Of a stretch of DNA of 64,000 bases, positions 46,019 to 56,725 are shown piece by piece. This DNA comes from Rubrivivax sp. Lineage in GTDB: Bacteria > Pseudomonadota > Gammaproteobacteria > Burkholderiales > Burkholderiaceae_C. The translations under genes and the position numbers were made by a program. The number at the start of each line of letters is the position of its first letter. Positions within the stretch are counted from its first letter, which is position 1. The notes under the pieces are model-generated. The model saw only the letters and a list, made by a program, of their open reading frames with translations, was not told where the DNA came from and ran no database searches. Where the stretch lies: assembly GCA_027484825.1 (NCBI GenBank), contig JAIXSE010000018.1, positions 1-64,000 of the forward strand, given 5' to 3'.

Positions 46019-48766
46019 ATGACTGTGGACGACGACCGCCCCGATCCTGACGCGCTGCTCGCGCAGTTGCGCGAGCAGGCCCAGGCCGAGCAGCGCGGAC
46101 GGCTGCGCATCTACTTCGGCGCGTCGGCGGGCGTGGGCAAGACCTACGCCATGCTGCAGGCCGCTCGGCAACTGCTGGGGCAGGGGCGCTCACCGCTGGT
46201 GGGCGTGGTGGAGACGCATGGTCGCGCGGACACCCTGGCTGTGCTCGACGCATCGCCGCGCCTGGCGCAGTTGCCGCTGCGACAGGTCCCCTACCGGGGC
46301 CGCAGCCTGCCGGAGTTCGACCTGGACGGCGCGCTGGAGCGCCTCAAGGGCCAGCCGGACCCGCTGATCCTGGTCGATGAACTCGCCCACAGCAATGTGC
46401 CGGGCTCCCGCCATCCCAAGCGCTGGCAGGACGTGGAGGAACTGCTGGCCAATGGCATCAGCGTCTACACCACGCTCAATGTCCAGCACCTGGAAAGCCT
46501 CAACGACGTGGTGGGCGGCATCACCGGCGTGCGGGTGCAGGAGACCTTGCCCGACACCTTCTTCGACCGGGCCGACGAGGTGGTGCTGGTCGACACGCCG
46601 GCCGACGAGCTGCTGACCCGCCTGAAAGCCGGCAAGGTCTACCAGGGCGCCCAGGCCGAGCGGGCCGGCCAGCATTTCTTCCGCAAGGGCAACTTGATGG
46701 CCCTGCGGGAGCTGGCGCTGCGCCGCACCGCCGACCGGGTCGAGAACGATGTTCAGGCCTGGCGCAGCAATGAGCGCATAGCCCAGGTCTGGAAAACGGA
46801 ATCGGCCATCCTCTGCGCCATCGGGCCCGGGGATGAAGCGGAAAGCGTGGTCCGCAGTGCGGCGCAACTGGCACAGCAGCTGGCGGTGAGCTGGCATGCG
46901 GTCCATGTGGAAACGCCGCGGCTGCATCGGCTTTCCGACTCCCAGCGGGAACGGGTGCTGCGGGTGGTCCGCCTGGCGGAAGACCTGGGCGCGACAACGG
47001 CGGTGCTGGCTGGCCAGGAGCCCAGCAGCGTGCTGCGGGACTACGCCCGGGCGCACAACCTCTCCAAGCTGGTGATGGGCCGCGGCGTGGCCCGGCGCTG
47101 GTGGCAGCCTGGCAAGGACCTGGCCACCTGGCTGCGAACGGCGGCGCCGGAGCTGGACCTGGTGCAGGTCGGCGCCTCGCGCACGCAGCGCAGCTCTGAA
47201 GACCTGGGGGTCCGCCGTCTGACCGATCCGGCGCGCTATCTGCGGGCCACCCTGGCCTGCGCGGCGGTGGCGCTGGCCTGCTGGCCGCTCAGCCATCGCG
47301 TGGCCACCGACAACATCGTCATGCTGTTCCTGCTGGGGGTGGTGGGTGTGGCCATGCGGCTGGGGCGCGGGCCTGCGGTGCTGGCCAGCTTCCTCAGCGT
47401 GGGTTTCTTCGACTTCTTCTTCGTGGCCCCGCGCCTGAGCCTGGCGGTGAGCGATGTCCAGTACCTCATCACCTTCGGTGTGATGCTGGCCGTGGGCCTG
47501 GTGACCGGCCAGCTGACGGCCGGCCTGCGCTATGAGGCGCGGGTGTCCTCCGACCGGGAAGCCCGGGCCCGGGGCCTGTTCGAGTTGACCCGAGAGCTGG
47601 CGGGCGCTTTGCAGGTCGAGCAGGTCGTGGCGACGGCGGAGCAGCAACTGGCGCAGCAGTTCGGGGGGCGCGCCCTCATCTATGTGCTGGATGATGACGA
47701 CCATCTGCAGCCGTCTCCGGCACAGGCCCCGTTGAGCCCGGTCGATGCGCCGGACGCCGGCACCGCCCGCTGGGCCCTGGACCACGAGCAGCCGGCCGGG
47801 CAGGGCACCGACACGCTACCGGGCAGCGCCTGGTTCTACCTGCCGCTGCGGGCGCCGATGCGCAGCCGCGGCGTGCTGGCCATCCAGCCGGGCGACGCGC
47901 GCACGCTGCTGCTGCCCGAGCGTCGCGCCCAACTGGACACCGCCGGCCGCATCACCGGTCAGGCGCTGGAGCGGGTGCATTACGTCGAGGTCGCTCAGCA
48001 GGCGCTGCTGCAGATCGAATCCGAGCGACTGCGCAATTCGCTGCTGTCCGCGCTGTCGCACGACCTGCGCACACCGCTGGCGGCGCTGCAGGGGCTGGCC
48101 GAGACCTTGTCGGCGACGCTGGCGGATGAGGCGCCAGCCGCCGCGACCGCACAGCGACAGGCCCAGGCCCTGGACGCCGCCCGCGCCATCGAGCAGCAGT
48201 CGCTGCGCATCAATGCGATGGTGCACAACCTGCTGGACATGGCCCGGCTGCAAAGCGGTGCCCTCAAGCTCAACCGCCAGTGGCAGCCCATTGATGAAGT
48301 GGTGGGCAGCAGCCTGGCCCTGATGGGCAGCGCCTTGGCCCGTCACCGGGTGGTGCTGGATGTGCCGGCCAGCTTGCCGCTGGTGGAGGTGGACGCTGCG
48401 CTGCTGGAGCGGGTGCTGGCCAATCTGCTGGAGAACGCCGCCAAATACACGCCGCCCGGCAGCGAGGTGCGGGTGGTGGCCCGTGCGCGCCAGGAGGAGT
48501 TGTGGCTGTCGGTGGAGGACAACGGCCCGGGCCTGCCGGCCGGCCGGGAAGAGCTGCTTTTCGAGAAATTCACCCGGGGCCACAGCGAGTCCCACCTGCC
48601 TGGCGTGGGCCTGGGGCTGGCCATCAGCCGTGCCATCATGCAGGCCCATGGCGGACGGATCTGGGCCGAGCGTGCCGGCCCGTCGGGCGGTGCCCGCTTC
48701 AGCCTGGCCGTGCCGCTGGGCACGCCGCCCGCAGTGCCGAATTTTGAGCAGGAGAGTGTGTTGTGA
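46019..48766 (+). CDS. kdpD: Osmosensitive K+ channel histidine kinase KdpD
   Basis: 915-residue sensor kinase. The N-terminal KdpD domain (about 20–230) has a Walker-type GASAGVGKTYAMLQAARQLL and DELAHSNVPGSRHPKRWQDV. A USP-like domain follows (about 255–375), four transmembrane helices of DUF4118 (about 410–500) and a GAF-like domain. The HisKA box is LSALSHDLRTPLAALQGLAE (phospho-His near 682), and the ATPase motifs are NLLENAAKYTPPG and GVGLGLAISRAI. It senses low K+ and phosphorylates KdpE. It follows the porin by 28 bp. Confidence 0.96.
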   Translation: MTVDDDRPDPDALLAQLREQAQAEQRGRLRIYFGASAGVGKTYAMLQAARQLLGQGRSPLVGVVETHGRADTLAVLDASPRLAQLPLRQVPYRGRSLPEFDLDGALERLKGQPDPLILVDELAHSNVPGSRHPKRWQDVEELLANGISVYTTLNVQHLESLNDVVGGITGVRVQETLPDTFFDRADEVVLVDTPADELLTRLKAGKVYQGAQAERAGQHFFRKGNLMALRELALRRTADRVENDVQAWRSNERIAQVWKTESAILCAIGPGDEAESVVRSAAQLAQQLAVSWHAVHVETPRLHRLSDSQRERVLRVVRLAEDLGATTAVLAGQEPSSVLRDYARAHNLSKLVMGRGVARRWWQPGKDLATWLRTAAPELDLVQVGASRTQRSSEDLGVRRLTDPARYLRATLACAAVALACWPLSHRVATDNIVMLFLLGVVGVAMRLGRGPAVLASFLSVGFFDFFFVAPRLSLAVSDVQYLITFGVMLAVGLVTGQLTAGLRYEARVSSDREARARGLFELTRELAGALQVEQVVATAEQQLAQQFGGRALIYVLDDDDHLQPSPAQAPLSPVDAPDAGTARWALDHEQPAGQGTDTLPGSAWFYLPLRAPMRSRGVLAIQPGDARTLLLPERRAQLDTAGRITGQALERVHYVEVAQQALLQIESERLRNSLLSALSHDLRTPLAALQGLAETLSATLADEAPAAATAQRQAQALDAARAIEQQSLRINAMVHNLLDMARLQSGALKLNRQWQPIDEVVGSSLALMGSALARHRVVLDVPASLPLVEVDAALLERVLANLLENAAKYTPPGSEVRVVARARQEELWLSVEDNGPGLPAGREELLFEKFTRGHSESHLPGVGLGLAISRAIMQAHGGRIWAERAGPSGGARFSLAVPLGTPPAVPNFEQESVL

Positions 48767-49461
48767 GTGAGCCGCAGCCGGTGGCCCTGATTGTGGAGGA
48801 CGAGCCCAACATCCGCCGTTTCGTGCGGCTGGCGCTGGAAGGCGAGGGCTGGACCGTGCACGACGCCGCCACCGTCAAGCAGGGGCTGATCGACGCGGGC
48901 ACCCGCCGCCCCGATCTGGTCGTGCTGGACCTGGGCCTGCCCGACGGGGACGGGGTGGACTTCCTTCGCGACCTGCGCGGCTGGTCCACGGTGCCGGTGA
49001 TCGTGCTGTCCGCCCGCGGGGCCGAAGAGGACAAGATCGCCGCCCTCGACGCCGGCGCGGACGACTATCTCTCCAAACCCTTCGGCGTCGGTGAGCTGAT
49101 GGCGCGGGTGCGGGTGGCGCTGCGGCGCAGCCAGGCCCGGGCCAGCGAGCAGCAGGACCCGGTGTTCCGCTTCGGCGACGTGGAAGTGGACCAGGCCGCG
49201 CGCCGGGTGCGACGGGGCGGAGCAGAGGTGCACCTCACCCCGATCGAATACCGGCTGCTGAGCCATCTCATCGCCAATGCCGGCAAGGTGCTCACCCACC
49301 GCCAACTGCTGAAGGCGGTCTGGGGGCCGGCGCATGTGGAGCAGAACCACTACCTGCGGGTCTACATGGGCAACCTGCGGCAAAAGCTCGAGGCCGAACC
49401 CGCCAGCCCCCGCCATTTGCTGACCGAGACCGCGGTGGGATATCGGCTGATGCAGGGCTGA
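48763..49461 (+). CDS. kdpE: KdpE response regulator
   Basis: 232-residue OmpR-family regulator of kdpFABC. The receiver domain has VALIVEDEPNIRRFVRLALE, phospho-Asp in LVVLDLGLPDGDGVDFL and the switch Lys in DDYLSKPFGVGEL. The winged-helix domain (about 133–230) has LTPIEYRLLSHLIANAGKVL and RVYMGNLRQKLE. The GTG start at 48763 overlaps the kdpD stop, so kinase and regulator are co-translated. Confidence 0.96.
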   Translation: MSEPQPVALIVEDEPNIRRFVRLALEGEGWTVHDAATVKQGLIDAGTRRPDLVVLDLGLPDGDGVDFLRDLRGWSTVPVIVLSARGAEEDKIAALDAGADDYLSKPFGVGELMARVRVALRRSQARASEQQDPVFRFGDVEVDQAARRVRRGGAEVHLTPIEYRLLSHLIANAGKVLTHRQLLKAVWGPAHVEQNHYLRVYMGNLRQKLEAEPASPRHLLTETAVGYRLMQG

Positions 49462-49569
49462 CAAAAAAGTTGCATCCGGTGCCGGAGGGGCTGCGTATAG
49501 CGGCCCAGGGCGAATCTTTCGTCCTGCGGGACCCACCACATCCGTCCCGCTCCAACCGAGGAGCCACCG

Positions 49570-51096
49570 ATGACATCGATCCAACCGACGCCTCTGCGCG
49601 CCGTCTTTCTGGCGTGCGCCGCACTGTGCGCCAGCGCGGCCTTCGCGTCCAGCCACCGAGAGGCACCGTTCATCACCACGGTGCCCAAGGCGGATGCCAC
49701 CGACTTCTACCTGTTCATGAGCTATGAGCCGGGGCGTACAGACTACGTCACGCTCATTGCCAACTATCTGCCGCTGCAGGACCCTTACGGCGGGCCCAAC
49801 TATTTTTCTCTGGATCCCAACGCCCTCTACGAAATCCACGTCGACAACAACGGGGACGCCAAAGAAGACATCACCTTCCAGTTCCGGTTTAAGAACACGC
49901 TCAAGGCGACCGCCCTGACGATTGGCGACAAGAGCGTGCCCATTCCGCTGATCCAGTCCGGCTCGGTGTCCGACCCGAAGGCCGCAGCGCTCAACCTGAA
50001 CGAGAGCTTCACGGTGGATGTGGTGCGCGGCGACCGGCGGTCCGGCACGCGGGCGTCCATCACCAACACGGCGGGCGGTGCCACCTTTGACAAGCCGGTG
50101 GACAACATCGGCAAGAAGACGATTGCCGACTACGCCGCCTATGCCGCCAAGCATATCTACACCGTCAACATCCCGGGCTGCAGCCAGCCAGGCAAGGTGT
50201 TCGTGGGCCAGCGCAAGGATCCGTTTGCGGTCAACCTGGGGACGATTTTTGACCTGGTGAATGCGCCGGTCGATGTCATCACCGACCCGAGCAAGATCAA
50301 TGCCGCAGCCAATGTCCTGGAAGGCAAGAACGTCACCACGCTGGCGCTGGAAGTGCACAAGAGCTGTCTGGTGGCCAGCGGGGAACCGGTGATCGGCGGC
50401 TGGACCACGGCCAGCATGCGCCAGGCCCGCTTGCTCGACCCGTCCCCCAAGGCCGGTCATCAATCGGCGGACAAGGCCGGCGGCGCTTGGGTGCAGGTGT
50501 CGCGGCTGGGCATGCCGCTGGTCAATGAAGTGGTCATCGGCCTGCCGGACAAGGACCGCTTCAATGCCTCCAAGCCCAAGGACGACGCGCAGTTTGCCAC
50601 TTACGTCACCCATCCCACGCTGCCGGCCTTGCTGGCGACGGTGCTCAATCTGCCGGGGTCCGCGCCGACCAATCTGCCGCGCAATGACCTGGTGACCACC
50701 TTCCTCACCGGCATTCCCGCGCTCAACAAGCCCGCCACGGTGACGCCGTCCGAGCAACTGCGGCTGAACACCGGCATCCCGGCCGTGCCCTTTGCGCAGC
50801 AGAACCGACTGGGTGTGGTGGGCAACATCCTGGCGGGCGGTACGGACAATGCCGGCTTCCCCAATGGCCGCCGTCCCAAGGACGATGTGGTGGACATCTC
50901 GCTGGTGGCGGTGATGGGCGGTCTCTGCATGGCCAATGGCAACAATGATGCGCTGGGTTTCGGCCCGGCCTGCAAGCCGTCGGCGGTCCCGCTGGGCGCG
51001 ACCTCGCTCAAGCTGCATGACGCGGTGGACCAGGCGGTGGTGCCGCTGCTGCCGGCCTTCCCCTACCTGTACACGCCGGTTGGCGGTACGCAGTGA
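49570..51096 (+). CDS. Exported DUF4331 protein
   Basis: 508 residues with a signal peptide (1–26, ending AAFA). The mature protein opens SSHREAPFITTVPKADATDF, the hallmark of DUF4331 proteins. The body is predicted beta-rich, with GGPNYFSLDPNALYEIHVDN and repeated Asp/Asn-rich loops that could bind calcium. Cysteines near 205, 285, 450 and 464 could form disulfides. The function of the family is unknown. It starts a tight four-gene group with a lipoprotein, a repeat protein and a HupE/UreJ-type membrane protein. Confidence 0.9.
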   Translation: MTSIQPTPLRAVFLACAALCASAAFASSHREAPFITTVPKADATDFYLFMSYEPGRTDYVTLIANYLPLQDPYGGPNYFSLDPNALYEIHVDNNGDAKEDITFQFRFKNTLKATALTIGDKSVPIPLIQSGSVSDPKAAALNLNESFTVDVVRGDRRSGTRASITNTAGGATFDKPVDNIGKKTIADYAAYAAKHIYTVNIPGCSQPGKVFVGQRKDPFAVNLGTIFDLVNAPVDVITDPSKINAAANVLEGKNVTTLALEVHKSCLVASGEPVIGGWTTASMRQARLLDPSPKAGHQSADKAGGAWVQVSRLGMPLVNEVVIGLPDKDRFNASKPKDDAQFATYVTHPTLPALLATVLNLPGSAPTNLPRNDLVTTFLTGIPALNKPATVTPSEQLRLNTGIPAVPFAQQNRLGVVGNILAGGTDNAGFPNGRRPKDDVVDISLVAVMGGLCMANGNNDALGFGPACKPSAVPLGATSLKLHDAVDQAVVPLLPAFPYLYTPVGGTQ

Positions 51097-51110
51097 CCCG
51101 GGAGTCGATC

Positions 51111-51413
51111 ATGTTCAGCATCACCAAGCTTTGCGTCTCGACGACGCTGCGGCGCGTCGCTGTCCTGCTGGCTCCGGCAGTGGCTGCGGGCGTGATGACC
51201 GGATGTTTTGGCGGAGGCGGGGACGACGGTTCACCCATCGTGTCCACGCCGGCAGCGTCGGTACCGGACAGCGCGCTGGCCTCGGCCACGGCCTACACGC
51301 AGTTCACGTTGGCCACCACGCTCAGCAGCAGCGAGACCGCCGAGCCGCTGACGGCCGACAACGTGACAACGCCGCCGTCCACGGACACCGACGAACCGGT
51401 GCCGGTCAGTTGA
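51111..51413 (+). CDS. Small exported lipoprotein of unknown function
   Basis: 100 residues. The signal peptide ends in a lipobox-like VAAGVMTGC (Cys about residue 31), followed by a FGGGGDDG linker. The remainder is Ser/Thr/Ala-rich and probably unstructured. The ATG at 51111 has GGGAG upstream; a GTG at 51093 would overlap the DUF4331 stop. Its own stop overlaps the TTG start of the next gene, so it lies within a coupled operon. Family not recognised. Confidence 0.75.
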   Translation: MFSITKLCVSTTLRRVAVLLAPAVAAGVMTGCFGGGGDDGSPIVSTPAASVPDSALASATAYTQFTLATTLSSSETAEPLTADNVTTPPSTDTDEPVPVS

Positions 51414-52678
51414 GCCGCCCGCGTGCGTGCAAGCGCAGGGTCGGGCTGACGCTGTCTGCCGGGGTGCTCGGCGCGCTGAGCATGCTGAGCGCACTGAGCG
51501 TGCATCCCCCGGCGTTCGCTGCGCCGGTCACTCCCCGCGCTGACGATGAAGTGGTCGAGCGCCTGCCGCTGCGGGCGGCCTCCGCTGGAGAGCGGGCGCG
51601 ACAGCGTGCGGCGCAGCGGATGCTGGCCCAGGGGCCTCACGACCTGGGCCAGGCCTTGGGCAACGCCCGTGAGGCGCTTGAGCAGGCACGGCGTGAAGGC
51701 GACCCGCGTCTGCTGGGCACCGCCCAGGCCTGGCTGCAGCCGTGGTGGAACGACCCATCGGCACCGCCCGGCGCGCGTGTGCTCAAGGCCATGGTGCTCC
51801 AGGCCCGCCACGATTTCGAGGGCGCGCTGAGGGAACTCGACCATGTGCTGGCGTCACCGCGGCTGCCGTCGACGCTGGACGCCCAAGCCACGCTGACCCG
51901 ATCCGCCGTGTTGCAGGTGGTGGGCCGCTGGGACGAAGCCCGGGTGGGCTGCCAGCGTCTGGCGGCCCCGCCGTATGGGTTGCCCCACGGGCGTGCCTGC
52001 CTCCTGGAACTGGACAGCCTGCAAGGCCGCAGCACCGACCTCCAGCAGTCCCTGGAAGCGCTGGACAGATCCGCCGCGGCGCCTCACGCCTGGTTGGCGC
52101 TGCTGCGGGCCGAAGGCGCGGAACGGGCAGGCAGCGTCGCGGCTGGCGCCCTGTATGCCAGGGCTCTTGCACTGGATGAGGGCGTGTATGCGCGTGCGGC
52201 CTACGCGGACTGGCTGCTGGATCGCGCGAGGCCGGCGGAGGCGGCCGCGGTCGCACTCGGCCGGGAGAGCCGGGAGGGCCGGGACCGCCAGGACCGTCCC
52301 AGCCCGCCAGACGCGGCGGGGTTGGACGAGCTTCCCGACGCATTGCTGCTGCGAGTGGCCATCGCCTGGCAGCGATCGGGCCACCGCGATGCGGCGCGTG
52401 CGGCGGACCTAATGCAGGCCCGCTTCGACGCGGCTGCCCTGCGGGGCGACACCACGCACGCCCGGGAGCGCGCACGCTTTGCACTGGATGTCCGTCACGA
52501 TCCCGCCATGGCGCTGCAGCAAGCCGCGCTCAACTGGACGCATCAACGTGAACCTGCCGATGCGGTGCTGCTGGTGCGCGCTGCCCGCGCTGCCGGACAA
52601 CCCGCGGCCGCCGAACCGGTGATGGCGCTGGTCCGCGCACACGCCCTGAAAGACCGCCGCCTGGAGGTGCCGAGATGA
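51410..52678 (+). CDS. Exported helical-repeat (TPR-like) protein
   Basis: 422 residues read from a TTG start that overlaps the previous stop codon; no ATG or GTG gives the signal peptide intact. That signal peptide covers about 1–38 (RVGLTLSAGVLGALSMLSAL, ending AFA). The mature part is almost wholly alpha-helical with TPR-like repeats such as ARVLKAMVLQARHDFEGALR and GALYARALALDEGVYARAAY. It probably acts as a periplasmic scaffold for its partners. It overlaps the following HupE/UreJ-like gene by 4 bp. Confidence 0.75.
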   Translation: MSRPRACKRRVGLTLSAGVLGALSMLSALSVHPPAFAAPVTPRADDEVVERLPLRAASAGERARQRAAQRMLAQGPHDLGQALGNAREALEQARREGDPRLLGTAQAWLQPWWNDPSAPPGARVLKAMVLQARHDFEGALRELDHVLASPRLPSTLDAQATLTRSAVLQVVGRWDEARVGCQRLAAPPYGLPHGRACLLELDSLQGRSTDLQQSLEALDRSAAAPHAWLALLRAEGAERAGSVAAGALYARALALDEGVYARAAYADWLLDRARPAEAAAVALGRESREGRDRQDRPSPPDAAGLDELPDALLLRVAIAWQRSGHRDAARAADLMQARFDAAALRGDTTHARERARFALDVRHDPAMALQQAALNWTHQREPADAVLLVRAARAAGQPAAAEPVMALVRAHALKDRRLEVPR

Positions 52679-53898
52679 CGGCCGCGCCGAGCCATTCGTG
52701 GGGCGCCGCCTGGCGGGCCCGCCTGACCGTTGCACTGATGACCCTGGTCGGCGTCGCGCTGCTGACCGGGGTGCTGCCGGCATGGGCCCACAAGGCCAGC
52801 GACGCCTATCTGCAAATCACTGTCCAGCCGCATGCGCTCACCGTGCGCACCGATGTGGCCCTGCGCGATCTGGATCGCGAGCTGGTGCTGGATACCGACG
52901 GCGACGGACTGCTGACCTGGGGGGAAGTGCGGGTGCGCAGTGCGGAGATCGAGTCCCTGGTCGACCGGAACATCGTGTGGCAGATGCGGGACGCCTCGCA
53001 TCAGCCCTGCGACGCCGGCCCCCCCGCCGCCCTGCAACTGGAGCAGCACAGCGACGGCCGCTATGCCGTGCTGCAGCGGACCTGGACCTGCCGCGACGAC
53101 GCCGCCTCCGCCGCGCTGACCTACCGGCTCTTCGGCGCCAGCGATCCGACCCATCGAGGCATCCTGCTTTGGCGTGATGCGGAAGTGCCGCGGACCACGG
53201 TGCTGGCGCCAGGGGCGCCAACGCTGACGCTGTCATGGCGGGACGGCGACCGCCCGTCTGCCGACGCAGAGTCCTCCGGCGCCCTCTGGGCGAGCCTCTT
53301 TCGGGACGGGGTCCACCACATCTGGGTGGGGGTGGATCATGTGCTGTTTCTCGTGGTGCTGCTGTTACCGGCCGTGCTGCGCCGCGAGGCCGGGCACTGG
53401 GTGCCTGCGCAGGCCTGGCGTCCGGCGGTCGGACGGGTGCTGGGGGTGGTGACCGCCTTCACGGTGGCCCACTCCATCACCCTCGGGCTGGCCGTGTTCG
53501 AGGTGGTCCAACCGCCTTCGCGGTGGGTGGAAAGCCTGATCGCGCTGAGTGTGCTGCTGGCGGCGCTCAACAATGTGCGGCCCGTCATGGTGAAGTCCAG
53601 CTGGCGGTTCACCTTCGTCTTCGGGCTGGTCCATGGCTTTGGCTTCGCCAGTGCGCTGAAGGACCTGGGGCTGTCCCGGTCCGAGCTGGCAGCGCCGCTG
53701 CTGCTGTTCAACCTGGGCGTGGAGGCCGGGCAGCTCGCCATCGTCAGCCTGCTGGTGCCACTGGCCTGGTGGGCGCGGCGCTGGACAGGGTACCCGCGCT
53801 GGGTGCTGGGAGCGGGGTCGGTGGGGGTGGCCGGCATGGCGGCGCTGTGGCTGGTCGAGCGGGTGTTTGATCTGCAGCTCCTTGGGCTGGGAGGGTGA
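52675..53898 (+). CDS. HupE/UreJ-family membrane protein with EF-hand-like loop
   Basis: 407 residues. A signal-like helix (about 18–38) precedes a periplasmic domain (about 39–195) containing LVLDTDGDGLLTWGEVRVRS, an EF-hand-like calcium loop, and two cysteines. The C-terminal half has six or seven transmembrane helices of the HupE/UreJ type, starting DGVHHIWVGVDHVLFLVVLL and including AFTVAHSITLGLAVFEV and FVFGLVHGFGFASALKDLGL. The histidines in these helices (DGVHHIWxGxDH, GLVHGFGF) match nickel/cobalt-transport-like families, but this subtype's ligand is unknown. Confidence 0.88.
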   Translation: MTAAPSHSWGAAWRARLTVALMTLVGVALLTGVLPAWAHKASDAYLQITVQPHALTVRTDVALRDLDRELVLDTDGDGLLTWGEVRVRSAEIESLVDRNIVWQMRDASHQPCDAGPPAALQLEQHSDGRYAVLQRTWTCRDDAASAALTYRLFGASDPTHRGILLWRDAEVPRTTVLAPGAPTLTLSWRDGDRPSADAESSGALWASLFRDGVHHIWVGVDHVLFLVVLLLPAVLRREAGHWVPAQAWRPAVGRVLGVVTAFTVAHSITLGLAVFEVVQPPSRWVESLIALSVLLAALNNVRPVMVKSSWRFTFVFGLVHGFGFASALKDLGLSRSELAAPLLLFNLGVEAGQLAIVSLLVPLAWWARRWTGYPRWVLGAGSVGVAGMAALWLVERVFDLQLLGLGG

Positions 53899-54011
53899 AC
53901 AGGAATATCCGTCACGCAGTGGAGGAAAACCCGTGCATCCGCTGGGCAAAGGCCCGCGTAAAGCCTTGGAAGCTGCATCATGTCGACGCAGCTGCCCTTG
54001 GAGGAGCCACC

Positions 54012-54623
54012 ATGATCCGTTTGAATGCCCACCGCATCCCCTTCGCCCGTGTGGCACTGCCGCTGATGGGTGCGGCGGTGCTGAGCGCCTGTGCCACGTC
54101 CGGCATGTCCGGTAAGTCCGGTATGCCTGGCAGCGGCGCCAAGCCGATGTTTTCCCAGGCGGGCCTGCCCACCAGCGTCCAGGTCCCCGAGGGGCACCGG
54201 GTGGCGCTGGAGACGGTGGGTGTCGGCACCATCACTTATGAATGCCGCGCCAAGCAGGACATGGCCGGACAGTTTGAATGGGTGTTTGTCGGCCCTTCGG
54301 CGACCTTGATGGACCGCCAGCAGCAGACGGTGGGCAAGTACTACGGGCCCCCGGCAACCTGGGAAGCCAAGGACGGCTCCAAGGTGACCGGCACGCAGGT
54401 GGCCGTGGCGCCGGCGGCGACGGGCAATATCCCGCTGCAACTGGTGAAGGCCAATCCGGCCATGGGCGCCGGTGCAATGCAGGGCGTCAGCTACATCCAG
54501 CGGGTGGCCACCCAGGGCGGCGTGGCGCCGGCCGTGGCCTGTGGCGCCGCGAACGTCAGCCAGCGCCAGACGGTCAACTACCAGGCGGATTACATCTTCT
54601 GGACCATGGGTTCGGCGCGGTGA
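54012..54623 (+). CDS. DUF3455 lipoprotein
   Basis: 203 residues with lipoprotein signal peptide and lipobox LSAC (Cys about 26). The mature domain has VPEGHRVALETVGVGTITYE, then WVFVGPSATLMDRQQQTVGK and PATWEAKDGSKVTG, typical of DUF3455. Function unknown. The ATG at 54012 follows GAGGAG. Its stop overlaps the start of the sigma-factor gene (TGATG), so it is co-translated with the sigma/anti-sigma pair and is a likely member of that regulon. Confidence 0.87.
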   Translation: MIRLNAHRIPFARVALPLMGAAVLSACATSGMSGKSGMPGSGAKPMFSQAGLPTSVQVPEGHRVALETVGVGTITYECRAKQDMAGQFEWVFVGPSATLMDRQQQTVGKYYGPPATWEAKDGSKVTGTQVAVAPAATGNIPLQLVKANPAMGAGAMQGVSYIQRVATQGGVAPAVACGAANVSQRQTVNYQADYIFWTMGSAR

Positions 54624-55270
54624 TGCAGGGGCCGACCGCTCTGCCGGAGCGGGATGCCCAACTGGAGCGCCTGATGCTGCGCGTGGCCCGCGCGGACCGT
54701 CAGGCGTTTCAGACGGTGTATGAGCTCACCGGCCCCACGCTGTTTGCGGTGGTGCTGCGCATCCATCGGGATCGCAGTGCGGCCGAGGACATCCTGCAGG
54801 AAGTGTTCATGACCGTGTGGCGCCAGGCCGAGCGTTACGACAGCAGCCAAAGCCGTGTCATGACCTGGCTGACCACCATCGCCCGCAACCGGGCCATCGA
54901 CAGCCTCCGGCGAAAATCGTCGGAGCCCGTGACCATCAGCCGGTTCTCGAGCCTGGGCAGCGGGGCGGACGATGACGGCGAGGCGGACCTGCTCGACGGC
55001 ATGCGCAGCGACGACCCCGGCCCGCTTGAATTGCTGGACGACGCCACGCGGGCCAATGATCTGGAGCGCTGCATGCAGCAATTGACGGGGGAACAGCGCA
55101 GTTCCCTGGCCCTGGCCTATTACCAGGGGCTTTCTCATGCGGAGGTGGCCCAGCACATGAGCCAGCCGCTGGGCACGGTGAAGAGCTGGGTGCGACGCGG
55201 GCTGCAAAGCCTGCGCAGTTGTCTGGATCGCGCGGTCCGGCAAGTCCGTGCCGAGGGGAGGGTGGCCTGA
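54623..55270 (+). CDS. ECF sigma factor, SigK-like
   Basis: 215-residue extracytoplasmic-function sigma factor. Region 2 (about 20–90) has AAEDILQEVFMTVWRQAERY and TWLTTIARNRAIDSLRRKSS. Region 4 (about 145–205) has LTGEQRSSLALAYYQGLSHA and GTVKSWVRRGLQSLRSCLD. It overlaps DUF3455 at its start and the anti-sigma factor at its stop. It should drive genes of an envelope response when released from the RskA-like partner; target promoters are unknown. Confidence 0.9.
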   Translation: MQGPTALPERDAQLERLMLRVARADRQAFQTVYELTGPTLFAVVLRIHRDRSAAEDILQEVFMTVWRQAERYDSSQSRVMTWLTTIARNRAIDSLRRKSSEPVTISRFSSLGSGADDDGEADLLDGMRSDDPGPLELLDDATRANDLERCMQQLTGEQRSSLALAYYQGLSHAEVAQHMSQPLGTVKSWVRRGLQSLRSCLDRAVRQVRAEGRVA

Positions 55271-55983
55271 TGGATTACGGACATCCCGAACGTGCGGATC
55301 GACTTGCCGCGGAATATGCCGCCGGCTTGCTGCGCGGCGGCGCCCGCCGGCGGTTCGAGCGACTGCTGCCGGCACATCCCGCTTTGGCGGCAGCGACGGC
55401 CCAGTGGACCGACCGCCTGCAACTGCTGGCCGACCGCATTCAGCCGGTGGCCCCGCCGGCCCGTGTGTGGATCAGCATTCAACGCCAGCTCTTCGGCGCG
55501 GCCAATGATGCGCAGGCGCCGTCACCCGCCAACGGGGTGCGGCTGGACGGACAGCGGCAATTGAGGGCGTGGCGGGTCATCGGGTCCACCGCGCTGGCGG
55601 CGTCCCTGGCGCTGGGCTTCGTGGTCCTCCGTCCGGTTGAGCCGCAGGCGCCGATCGTCGTGGTGCTACATGAGACGCCGGAAGGTCTGGCCGTGTCCAG
55701 GACGGGATTTGTGGCCAGCGTGTCGCCGGACGGCGGTGCCCTGGTGCTCAAGCCGCTGGGCCCGATCAAGATCGAAGCCGCGCAGGCGCTGGAGCTGTGG
55801 GCGGTTCCCACCCAGGGCAAGCCGCGGTCGCTGGGCCTGGTGGCCGCTGGCGACACGGCCACCACCGTCATCCGGACCGATCTGCTCAAGGGCACCAAGG
55901 CCTTTGCGGTGAGCCTGGAGCCGGCCGGAGGCTCACCGACGGGTCAGCCGTCCGGGCCGGTGGTGTCGGCCGGGCACGTCTGA
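55270..55983 (+). CDS. Anti-sigma-K factor (RskA-like)
   Basis: 237 residues. The N-terminal zinc-less anti-sigma part (about 1–85) contains RADRLAAEYAAGLLRGGARR and ends near the transmembrane helix (about 101–119, WRVIGSTALAASLALGFVVL). The periplasmic RskA domain (about 125–237) has VVLHETPEGLAVSRTGFVAS and LELWAVPTQGKPRSLGLV. It would hold the sigma factor at the membrane until cleaved by regulated proteolysis. The ATG at 55270 overlaps the sigma stop. Confidence 0.9.
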   Translation: MDYGHPERADRLAAEYAAGLLRGGARRRFERLLPAHPALAAATAQWTDRLQLLADRIQPVAPPARVWISIQRQLFGAANDAQAPSPANGVRLDGQRQLRAWRVIGSTALAASLALGFVVLRPVEPQAPIVVVLHETPEGLAVSRTGFVASVSPDGGALVLKPLGPIKIEAAQALELWAVPTQGKPRSLGLVAAGDTATTVIRTDLLKGTKAFAVSLEPAGGSPTGQPSGPVVSAGHV

Positions 55984-55996
55984 CCCCACGGGGGCT

Positions 55997-56725
55997 TCAA
56001 GCCGCCCGTGGCCGTGCCAGCACCGGCCGCCGGTCCAGGTGGCCGATCCAGTGGTGATACACCGCCCGGGCGGCTGTGCGCAGCCGGGCCAGCCGCTGCG
56101 GCAGGTCCGCCAGGATCTCCTGCTCCGTCTGCACCGTCGGTCCGTGGCATTGCGCCAGCTCGGAGCGCCCTTGGGCGCACCAGGCGCGCAGCCCCGGGTC
56201 GGTGATTTCCAGATGGCTTTGCAGGCCCAGATGCGGCCCCAGCGCAAACCCCTTGTTCAAGCCGTGCACGCCAAACAGGGTCCGTGTGGCTCCGGGCGGC
56301 ATCTGGAAGCTGTCGTGATGCCAGTTGAAGCTGAGCAGCCGCTCCTGGCCGTCGAACAGGTGGCGGGCCGCCGGCGTGATCCACAACTCGCGCCAGCCGA
56401 TGTCCGGCCGCGGATTGCGCTGCACCGCGGCCCCCAGCGTCCGCGCCAGTTGCTGCGCACCGAAGCAGTGTCCCAGCACCGGCCGCTCCAGCCGCAGGGC
56501 ATCCGCCAGCAGCAGCCGCTCACGCGCAATCCAGGGCAGGCGGTCCTGCACCGAATGGTCGCTCCCCAGCACCACCAGGCCGCTGAAGTCGGCGGCGTAG
56601 GCGGGGGGACGGTCTCCCAGGTCGGGACGCAGCAGTTCCACGTCCAGGCCATGCTCACGCAGGCATTGCAGCAGGTAGCCGGGACCCTGGGCGGGTTCGT
56701 GCTGGAGGATAAGCACCGGTCTCAT
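55997..56725 (-). CDS. Class I glutamine amidotransferase-like protein
   Basis: 242 residues with the GuaA-like amidotransferase fold. The nucleophile is the Cys in RPVLGHCFGAQQLARTLGAA, and HHDSF and HLEITD provide the usual following segments, the second carrying a candidate catalytic His (LQSHLEIT). N-terminal VLILQHEPAQGPGYLLQCLR matches the stand-alone family found next to no synthetase. It probably hydrolyses a gamma-glutamyl or similar amide, but the substrate is unknown. Confidence 0.82.
   Translation of the reverse strand: MRPVLILQHEPAQGPGYLLQCLREHGLDVELLRPDLGDRPPAYAADFSGLVVLGSDHSVQDRLPWIARERLLLADALRLERPVLGHCFGAQQLARTLGAAVQRNPRPDIGWRELWITPAARHLFDGQERLLSFNWHHDSFQMPPGATRTLFGVHGLNKGFALGPHLGLQSHLEITDPGLRAWCAQGRSELAQCHGPTVQTEQEILADLPQRLARLRTAARAVYHHWIGHLDRRPVLARPRAA

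Follow-up and report, generated by a model that had tools for sequence, protein, structure and literature searches.

A candidate SigK/RskA-regulated DUF4331-TPR-HupE operon in Rubrivivax sp. and its possible role in copper or nickel capture at the cell envelope

What might exported proteins of the DUF4331 family, a large family without known function (494 encoding stretches in one scan), do at the cell envelope, and under whose command? The question is raised by a locus of Rubrivivax sp. (assembly GCA_027484825.1, a genome of 5.66 Mb in 36 contigs), in which a DUF4331 gene is followed by genes for a small lipoprotein, a TPR-type repeat protein and a HupE/UreJ-2 permease, and then by a SigK-like sigma factor and an RskA-type anti-sigma factor. 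The locus lies within the first 64,000 nucleotides of contig JAIXSE010000018.1, the stretch analysed here and called the window throughout. An initial annotation had delimited a four-gene exported module at 49570-53898 and suggested metal or calcium-related surface chemistry. We read the locus as a self-contained module, regulated by an extracytoplasmic function (ECF) sigma factor, for the extracytoplasmic capture of a transition metal, either copper, nickel or both, and we give this reading a probability of roughly 0.58. Linking DUF4331 to a metal-binding permease and a SigK/RskA pair provides a concrete hypothesis for the family.

The four genes follow one another on the plus strand. The DUF4331 protein (49570..51096) matches its profile from end to end (PF14224, E 2.1e-149, 498.8 bits, profile positions 1-421 of 421), and it is followed by a small lipoprotein of 100 aa (51111..51413, lipobox by eye), an exported TPR-type helical repeat protein of 422 aa (51410..52678) and a HupE/UreJ-2 permease with an N-terminal periplasmic domain (52675..53898; HupE_UreJ_2, PF13795, E 3e-48, above the cut-off). 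The repeat protein itself has zero Pfam matches, and genes in the same slot of relatives score as TPR in Pseudoalteromonas, Streptomyces, Adhaeribacter and Miltoncostaea. By eye, all four products carry export signals of Sec or lipoprotein type; the lipoprotein and repeat genes share 4 nt, given a TTG start at 51410, and the repeat and HupE genes share another 4 nt, in agreement with the export signals and overlaps described by the initial annotation. Both the gene spacing and the overlaps fit co-transcription. Compared with the nearest named relative, Roseateles depolymerans, whose DUF4331 is 95% identical, the ratio of nonsynonymous to synonymous substitution rates is 0.05 for DUF4331, 0.14 for the TPR protein, 0.28 for HupE and 0.44 for the lipoprotein, which is the loosest, and by this measure the reading frames of all four genes are under purifying selection.

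DUF4331-lipoprotein-TPR-HupE is a widely conserved gene unit. The best 80 of the 494 stretches, found by a scan of genome contigs, yielded 79 relative loci, nearly all of them from Burkholderiales by their titles, and the window brought the set to 80. Co-occurrence was counted on the 68 of these 80 loci that have at least 4 kb downstream of DUF4331: the TPR and HupE genes both stand behind DUF4331 in 44, neither does in 24, and there is no locus with just one of them. A match to the small-lipoprotein profile, at a low threshold of 15 bits, is present behind DUF4331 in 62 of the 80 loci. Within the genus, full-length DUF4331 was found in 8 of 16 genomes (own included), and all eight carry TPR, HupE, SigK and RskA genes within the same cluster. 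In the phylum sample, a DUF4331 match occurs in 22 of 398 genomes, again with our own included; of 15 other full-length loci, several of them from one genus, TPR and HupE genes are present in 11, and in 11 the neighbourhood includes SigK and RskA, for which two further loci give weaker matches. Some loci are the same genomes (L090=G003, L031=G013, L033=G004, L034=G005, L032=G009 and L030=G014), therefore counts from the locus set and the genus set are not summed. The initial annotation had staked its module on co-occurrence in other genomes, and TPR and HupE do accompany DUF4331 in Burkholderiales, in other orders of the phylum sample and on plasmids. A Pseudoalteromonas plasmid carries, consecutively, genes for a sigma factor, an anti-sigma factor, DUF4331, an immunoglobulin (Ig)-like-domain protein, a repeat protein and HupE, and plasmids of Marinobacter and Lichenicola have DUF4331, a repeat-protein-like gene and HupE.

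The permease provides a connection to metal. Its AlphaFold2 model (mean predicted local distance difference test score, pLDDT, 88.2) comprises a helical membrane core at about residues 199-397, preceded by an Ig-like beta-sandwich in which three helices (63-70, 82-87 and 89-99) are inserted between strands 2 and 3 (54-62 and 100-106). Predicted maturation at AWA|HKASD, placed by the AxA rule of signal-peptidase cleavage, would make His39 (codon 52789-52791) the first residue. H39 is invariant in 37 of 37 aligned HupE sequences, with A36 and A38 kept in at least 90%, while the pattern anchored all but 12 of 48 genes, and in 35 of the 36 anchored a cleavage-like site immediately precedes the His. 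The domain also has a 12-residue loop of the kind known from EF-hands (residues 73-84, D73-x-D75-x-D77-x6-E84), which was found in 46 of 47 HupE relatives of at least 300 aa, and the permease part contains an H-x5-D-H motif (47 of 48). Both the EF-hand-like loop and the HupE/UreJ core had been noted in the initial annotation.

The best match of the model in the PDB is 9GCE (Foldseek E 1.2e-4, probability 1.00, template modelling (TM) score to target 0.56), followed by zinc-bound ZrgA and PA4063, and the helices between strands 2 and 3 are arranged as in 9GCE. This entry shows Ang-1, the N-terminal domain of a HupE/UreJ-2 "anglerase", with copper bound; the domain class was published in October 2025 (PMC12537917, cited here, as are PMC7509140 and PMC9861118 below, from part of its text). 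Ang-1 starts with a conserved His1 and has been proposed to feed the permease, whose family is described as a nickel permease, and RbAng-1a binds Cu2+ (Kd 73.6 nM) and Ni2+ (220 nM) through His1 (PMC12537917). The window protein shares with the anglerases, which carry Ang-1 or Ang-2 fused to HupE/UreJ-2, the PF13795 permease, the periplasmic beta-sandwich, the His at the predicted mature N-terminus and the helices between strands 2 and 3, and it differs from them in lacking a sequence-level match to 9GCE and in having the conserved EF-hand-like loop. Counted from His1 only, residue 79 inside this loop would take the position of RbAng-1a Asn41, the second copper ligand. Furthermore, the window operon adds DUF4331, the TPR protein and SigK/RskA, none of which was found named in the cited part of PMC12537917, where ECF and SigK have zero occurrences in the main text. 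The initial annotation knew of no experimental description of the module. For the N-terminal domain class of HupE/UreJ-2 this no longer holds (PMC12537917). For DUF4331 our literature search found no paper on the family, and the combined DUF4331-TPR-HupE-SigK/RskA operon was not found in the cited part of PMC12537917.

A comparable N-terminal histidine is predicted for DUF4331. Its mature protein would begin with Ser27-Ser28-His29 (codons 49648-49656), following a pattern with a small residue at -3, a variable residue at -2 and Ala at -1, with the His as third residue after the cleavage point. This spacing holds in 107 of 113 pattern matches (106 Ser-Ser-His and one Thr-Ser-His), among them both translated Actinomycetota loci; four of the 113 matches (L052, L060, L082 and the second in L197) are not continued by DUF4331 sequence, and L155 and L195 are genuine exceptions. 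Similarly, all but 3 of 81 genes could be anchored, and in each of these 78 the nearest cleavage-like site falls exactly two residues before the His, compared to a His at position 3 in 7 of 252 crudely picked exported proteins. A free X-X-His N-terminus forms an amino-terminal copper- and nickel-binding (ATCUN) site, and the predicted mature N-terminus of DUF4331, with its His at position 3, would be an ATCUN-type Cu/Ni site.

Substitutions in the permease slot and among the neighbours likewise point to metal. On a Streptomyces plasmid (L197) the order is DUF4331-TPR-NicO, so that a NicO nickel transporter fills the slot with a different permease core from the HupE/UreJ-2 of the window; its exported domain also starts A|H and has an EF-hand-like loop, both by eye. 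DUF4198 genes stand near DUF4331 in 5 of the 24 loci without HupE and in 0 of the 44 with it (Fisher p 0.004, for loci that are not independent), and one of them lies behind the same upstream sequence as DUF4331. DUF4198 proteins have been shown to bind Ni2+ and are, like DUF4331, exported with an N-terminal His (PMC12537917), although they belong to a different Pfam family and carry the His at position 1 rather than 3. In addition, TonB receptors of one family occur near DUF4331 in 7 of the 44 loci with HupE and 3 of the 24 without; in L031, L032, L034, L036 and L038 such a receptor gene immediately follows HupE in the same orientation. This receptor family matched no named substrate, its matches being a weak BtuB-like plug and others below the cut-off. 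In the host genome, a TonB receptor 70% identical to these (L206:3716-6839) is divergent from a DUF2946 gene, a neighbour that says little because the DUF2946 gene runs with another receptor.

The unit does not end at 53898, as the initial annotation had it; the four genes stand, and the unit runs on to 55983 with a sigma/anti-sigma pair and two promoter-like copies that had been overlooked. All on the plus strand, a DUF3455 lipoprotein (54012..54623; PF11937, E 4.7e-35) is followed by a SigK-like ECF sigma factor (54623..55270; PF04542 and PF08281 above their cut-offs) and an RskA-type anti-sigma factor (55270..55983; PF10099, E 1.6e-18, above the cut-off). The best NCBIfam match of the sigma factor is SigK with 151.3 bits against a cut-off of 226, hence the name "SigK-like". 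It is partnered with an RskA_C-carrying protein, as in a SigK-RskA pair, and this is the only PF10099 match found in the host genome, which is 95% complete. The sigma factor contains Cys150 and Cys200, 50 residues apart, a pair found together in 40 of 47 aligned SigK sequences, or in 34 of 41 distinct ones after removal of six repeats of the same genomes. Judged by this spacing, they appear equivalent to Cys133 and Cys183 of Mycobacterium tuberculosis SigK, a redox-active pair that affects RskA binding (PMC7509140). The known mpt83-sigK-rskA cassettes of M. tuberculosis and Yersinia, the latter a minimal one, have the same type of ECF factor with a Cys pair, an RskA_C anti-sigma factor and exported targets; their target is the fasciclin protein MPT83, whereas that of the window would be DUF4331-TPR-HupE (PMC7509140). 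Profile searches found no fasciclin match among the seven genes from DUF4331 to RskA, and the two fasciclin matches of the host genome are both on another contig. SigK or RskA genes occur near DUF4331 in 18 of the 44 loci with TPR and HupE and in 5 of the 24 without.

The sequence TGCATCC-N16-CGTA stands with zero mismatches at 49471..49497, 72 nt upstream of DUF4331, and at 53934..53960, 51 nt upstream of DUF3455, both on the plus strand, and each is a SigK-type promoter candidate. The pattern was spotted by eye on these two copies and derived from them, therefore they are not evidence alone and the relatives are. A looser form, GCATCC-N15-17-CGT, precedes 58 of 81 DUF4331 genes, the window included (250 nt upstream plus the first 20 nt searched), where 200 mononucleotide shuffles gave 0.26 on average and never more than 2, and the strict form precedes 55 of 81. 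The 1.5 Mb of loci contain 94 strict matches, and a called gene begins at most 300 nt downstream of 79 of them: DUF4331 in 55 cases, sigK in 6, PEP-CTERM-like in 5 (a label below the Pfam cut-off, 18.5 versus 20.7 bits), DUF3455 in 4, a TonB receptor and DUF4198 in 1 each, and other genes in 7. Fifteen were assigned no gene, one of them the DUF3455 site of the window, since the crude gene caller started DUF3455 too early. Of the 22 DUF4331 genes from the phylum sample and plasmids, 10, Pseudoalteromonas among them, have the looser form upstream (shuffled mean 0.11). Upstream of DUF4331 the pattern is also present on the reverse strand in 19 of 81 cases, above the shuffles, and several of these matches precede divergent genes (sigK, PEP-CTERM-like, receptor and others). 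No sigma-70-type promoter was found in 49300-56100, where 0.2 were expected. The M. tuberculosis SigK consensus begins CCATCC. Judging by its distribution before genes for exported proteins, the shared upstream sequence appears to tag the members of a SigK-like regulon, and we infer that the sigma factor of the window controls both operons.

The pattern was also seen at other loci. A genus member without DUF4331 (L186:5261-10431) has three copies, before a ferritin-like gene, DUF3455 and sigK-rskA, and in the Roseateles relatives L187, L188 and L192 the pattern accompanies DUF3455, a small repeat-like exported protein and a Cu/Zn superoxide dismutase (SOD); L187, in which a CHRD label was given by eye, and L192 carry a second SigK/RskA-type pair, and the L188 stretch is without a sigma gene. 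In L190, L191 and L193 it stands before one gene in tandem arrays of paired small exported proteins (~110 and 84 aa), and in L037, L039 and L043 before a divergent gene adjoining DUF4331 that encodes an exported protein of 116-119 aa. A wider regulon in the host genome was sought with YGCATCCR-N15-CGTA and not sustained: there were 9 matches versus 2 for the reversed control pattern, two of the nine are the window sites, and the three others examined are intragenic or before no called gene.

Taken together, the module might work as follows. RskA would hold the SigK-like sigma factor until some cue, possibly a redox one, releases it, and the freed factor would transcribe its own operon, DUF3455-sigK-rskA, from one TGCATCC-N16-CGTA copy and the DUF4331-lipoprotein-TPR-HupE operon from the other. 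Once exported, DUF4331 would bind metal with the Ser-Ser-His of its mature N-terminus and would be kept close to the membrane by the lipoprotein and the TPR protein, and the His1 domain of HupE/UreJ-2 would take over the ion and pass it through the permease core. The gene order and its conservation, the sequence shared upstream, the sigma/anti-sigma pair and the fold match of the HupE domain are observed; the places of signal cleavage, metal binding by DUF4331, the hand-over, the choice of metal and the direction of its transport are predictions.

Several observations weigh against this proposal. HupE matches 9GCE by fold, with a TM score to target of 0.56, and 9GCE is absent among its sequence matches to E 1 and to E 10. 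The cleavage sites were placed by the AxA rule, and the same cleavage-distance control anchored only 8 of 50 genes when applied to the TPR protein. The conserved motif of DUF4331, SSHREAP, is longer than an ATCUN site requires, and its continuation as Arg-Glu-Ala-Pro makes a structural role possible, so that His29 could be structural rather than metal-binding. In addition, the DUF4331 model has pLDDT <50 at residues 21-42, no solved relative was found by sequence to E 1, and the best fold match in the PDB was unconvincing (E 0.036, probability 0.06). DUF4331 does without TPR and HupE in 24 of the 68 loci, and outside these a TPR gene occurs with no HupE nearby in L022, L155 and L198. On the regulatory side, the sigma factor falls below the NCBIfam cut-off (151 versus 226 bits), 12 of the 22 DUF4331 genes from the phylum sample and plasmids lack the looser upstream form, and the pattern lies at most 250 nt before only 4 of 24 sigK genes (shuffled mean 0.13). 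The last is expected insofar as sigK often sits behind other genes; the pattern precedes DUF3455 rather than sigK in the window, L031, L082 and L090. With up to three mismatches allowed the window has 10 matches versus 7.7 expected, therefore only the zero-mismatch copies count. Finally, the sister loci with the pattern that encode a ferritin-like protein and Cu/Zn SOD also fit oxidative stress.

Oxidative-stress defence is for this reason, together with the Cys pair, the main rival. The SigK/RskA pair would sense redox through its cysteines, the exported proteins would protect or repair the envelope, and metal would be a matter of cofactors. The conservation of both cysteines and the redox activity of the M. 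tuberculosis pair (PMC7509140) agree with this, as do the SOD and ferritin-like genes that follow the shared pattern in sister loci and the light induction of M. kansasii mpt83/mpt70 homologues with putative SigK sites (PMC9861118). However, HupE, NicO, DUF4198 and the TonB receptors belong to transport or metal-binding families and not to repair enzymes, and the profile search found no peroxidase or reductase among the seven genes, which makes oxidative stress an unlikely primary function, if a serious contender. We consider it improbable that DUF4331 is instead a secreted structural or adhesive surface protein, with the other products as export and anchoring helpers and an accidental link to metal. 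In four of four Rhodobacterales plasmid records examined (L153, L154, L195 and L196), the DUF4331 gene has type II secretion genes as neighbours and the stretch contains no annotated HupE; three of the four stretches also include an A24/PulO prepilin peptidase. This suggests that DUF4331 can leave the cell, on these plasmids perhaps as a dedicated secretion substrate, and the sharing of the upstream sequence by PEP-CTERM-like genes in five cases would suit a surface protein as well. Against such a role stand the strict pairing of TPR and HupE across the 68 loci, the replacement of HupE by NicO, and a His at a fixed distance from the predicted cleavage site.

The metal part of the surface chemistry originally suggested is borne out by the match of the HupE domain to a copper-bound solved domain; the calcium part is not, as the one characterised relative that was found binds Cu and Ni. 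A calcium function would have the EF-hand-like loop of HupE and an Asp-rich loop of DUF4331 bind Ca2+. The near-universal HupE loop and the DUF4331 stretch 92-100, in which D92, G95, D96 and E99 are invariant in 41 of 41 sequences, are compatible with it. Yet the solved relative has Cu at His1, the permease family is described as a nickel permease and DUF4198 is a Ni binder (PMC12537917), and calcium, as the least supported reading, seems very unlikely.

Beyond the window, the capture of copper or nickel by this module would extend to a broader proposal, which we hold as tentative and somewhat short of even odds. DUF4331 would be a widespread secreted X-X-His metal-capture family that forms, with the TPR scaffold and the anglerase-like permease, a Cu/Ni envelope relay commanded by SigK/RskA, and other regulon members (DUF4198, the TonB receptor, DUF3455 and Cu/Zn SOD) would serve the same metal economy. 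If so, searches for an N-terminal His at position 1 would miss X-X-His proteins such as DUF4331, and the relay would hint at the signal answered by the SigK/RskA class, which workers in the field call unknown (PMC7509140).

Directly upstream of the locus, kdpD and kdpE occupy 46019-49461 of the window, with kdpE preceding DUF4331 on the plus strand. Absent from the other listed relative loci, a kdpE-like gene directly before DUF4331 recurs in R. depolymerans (L090).

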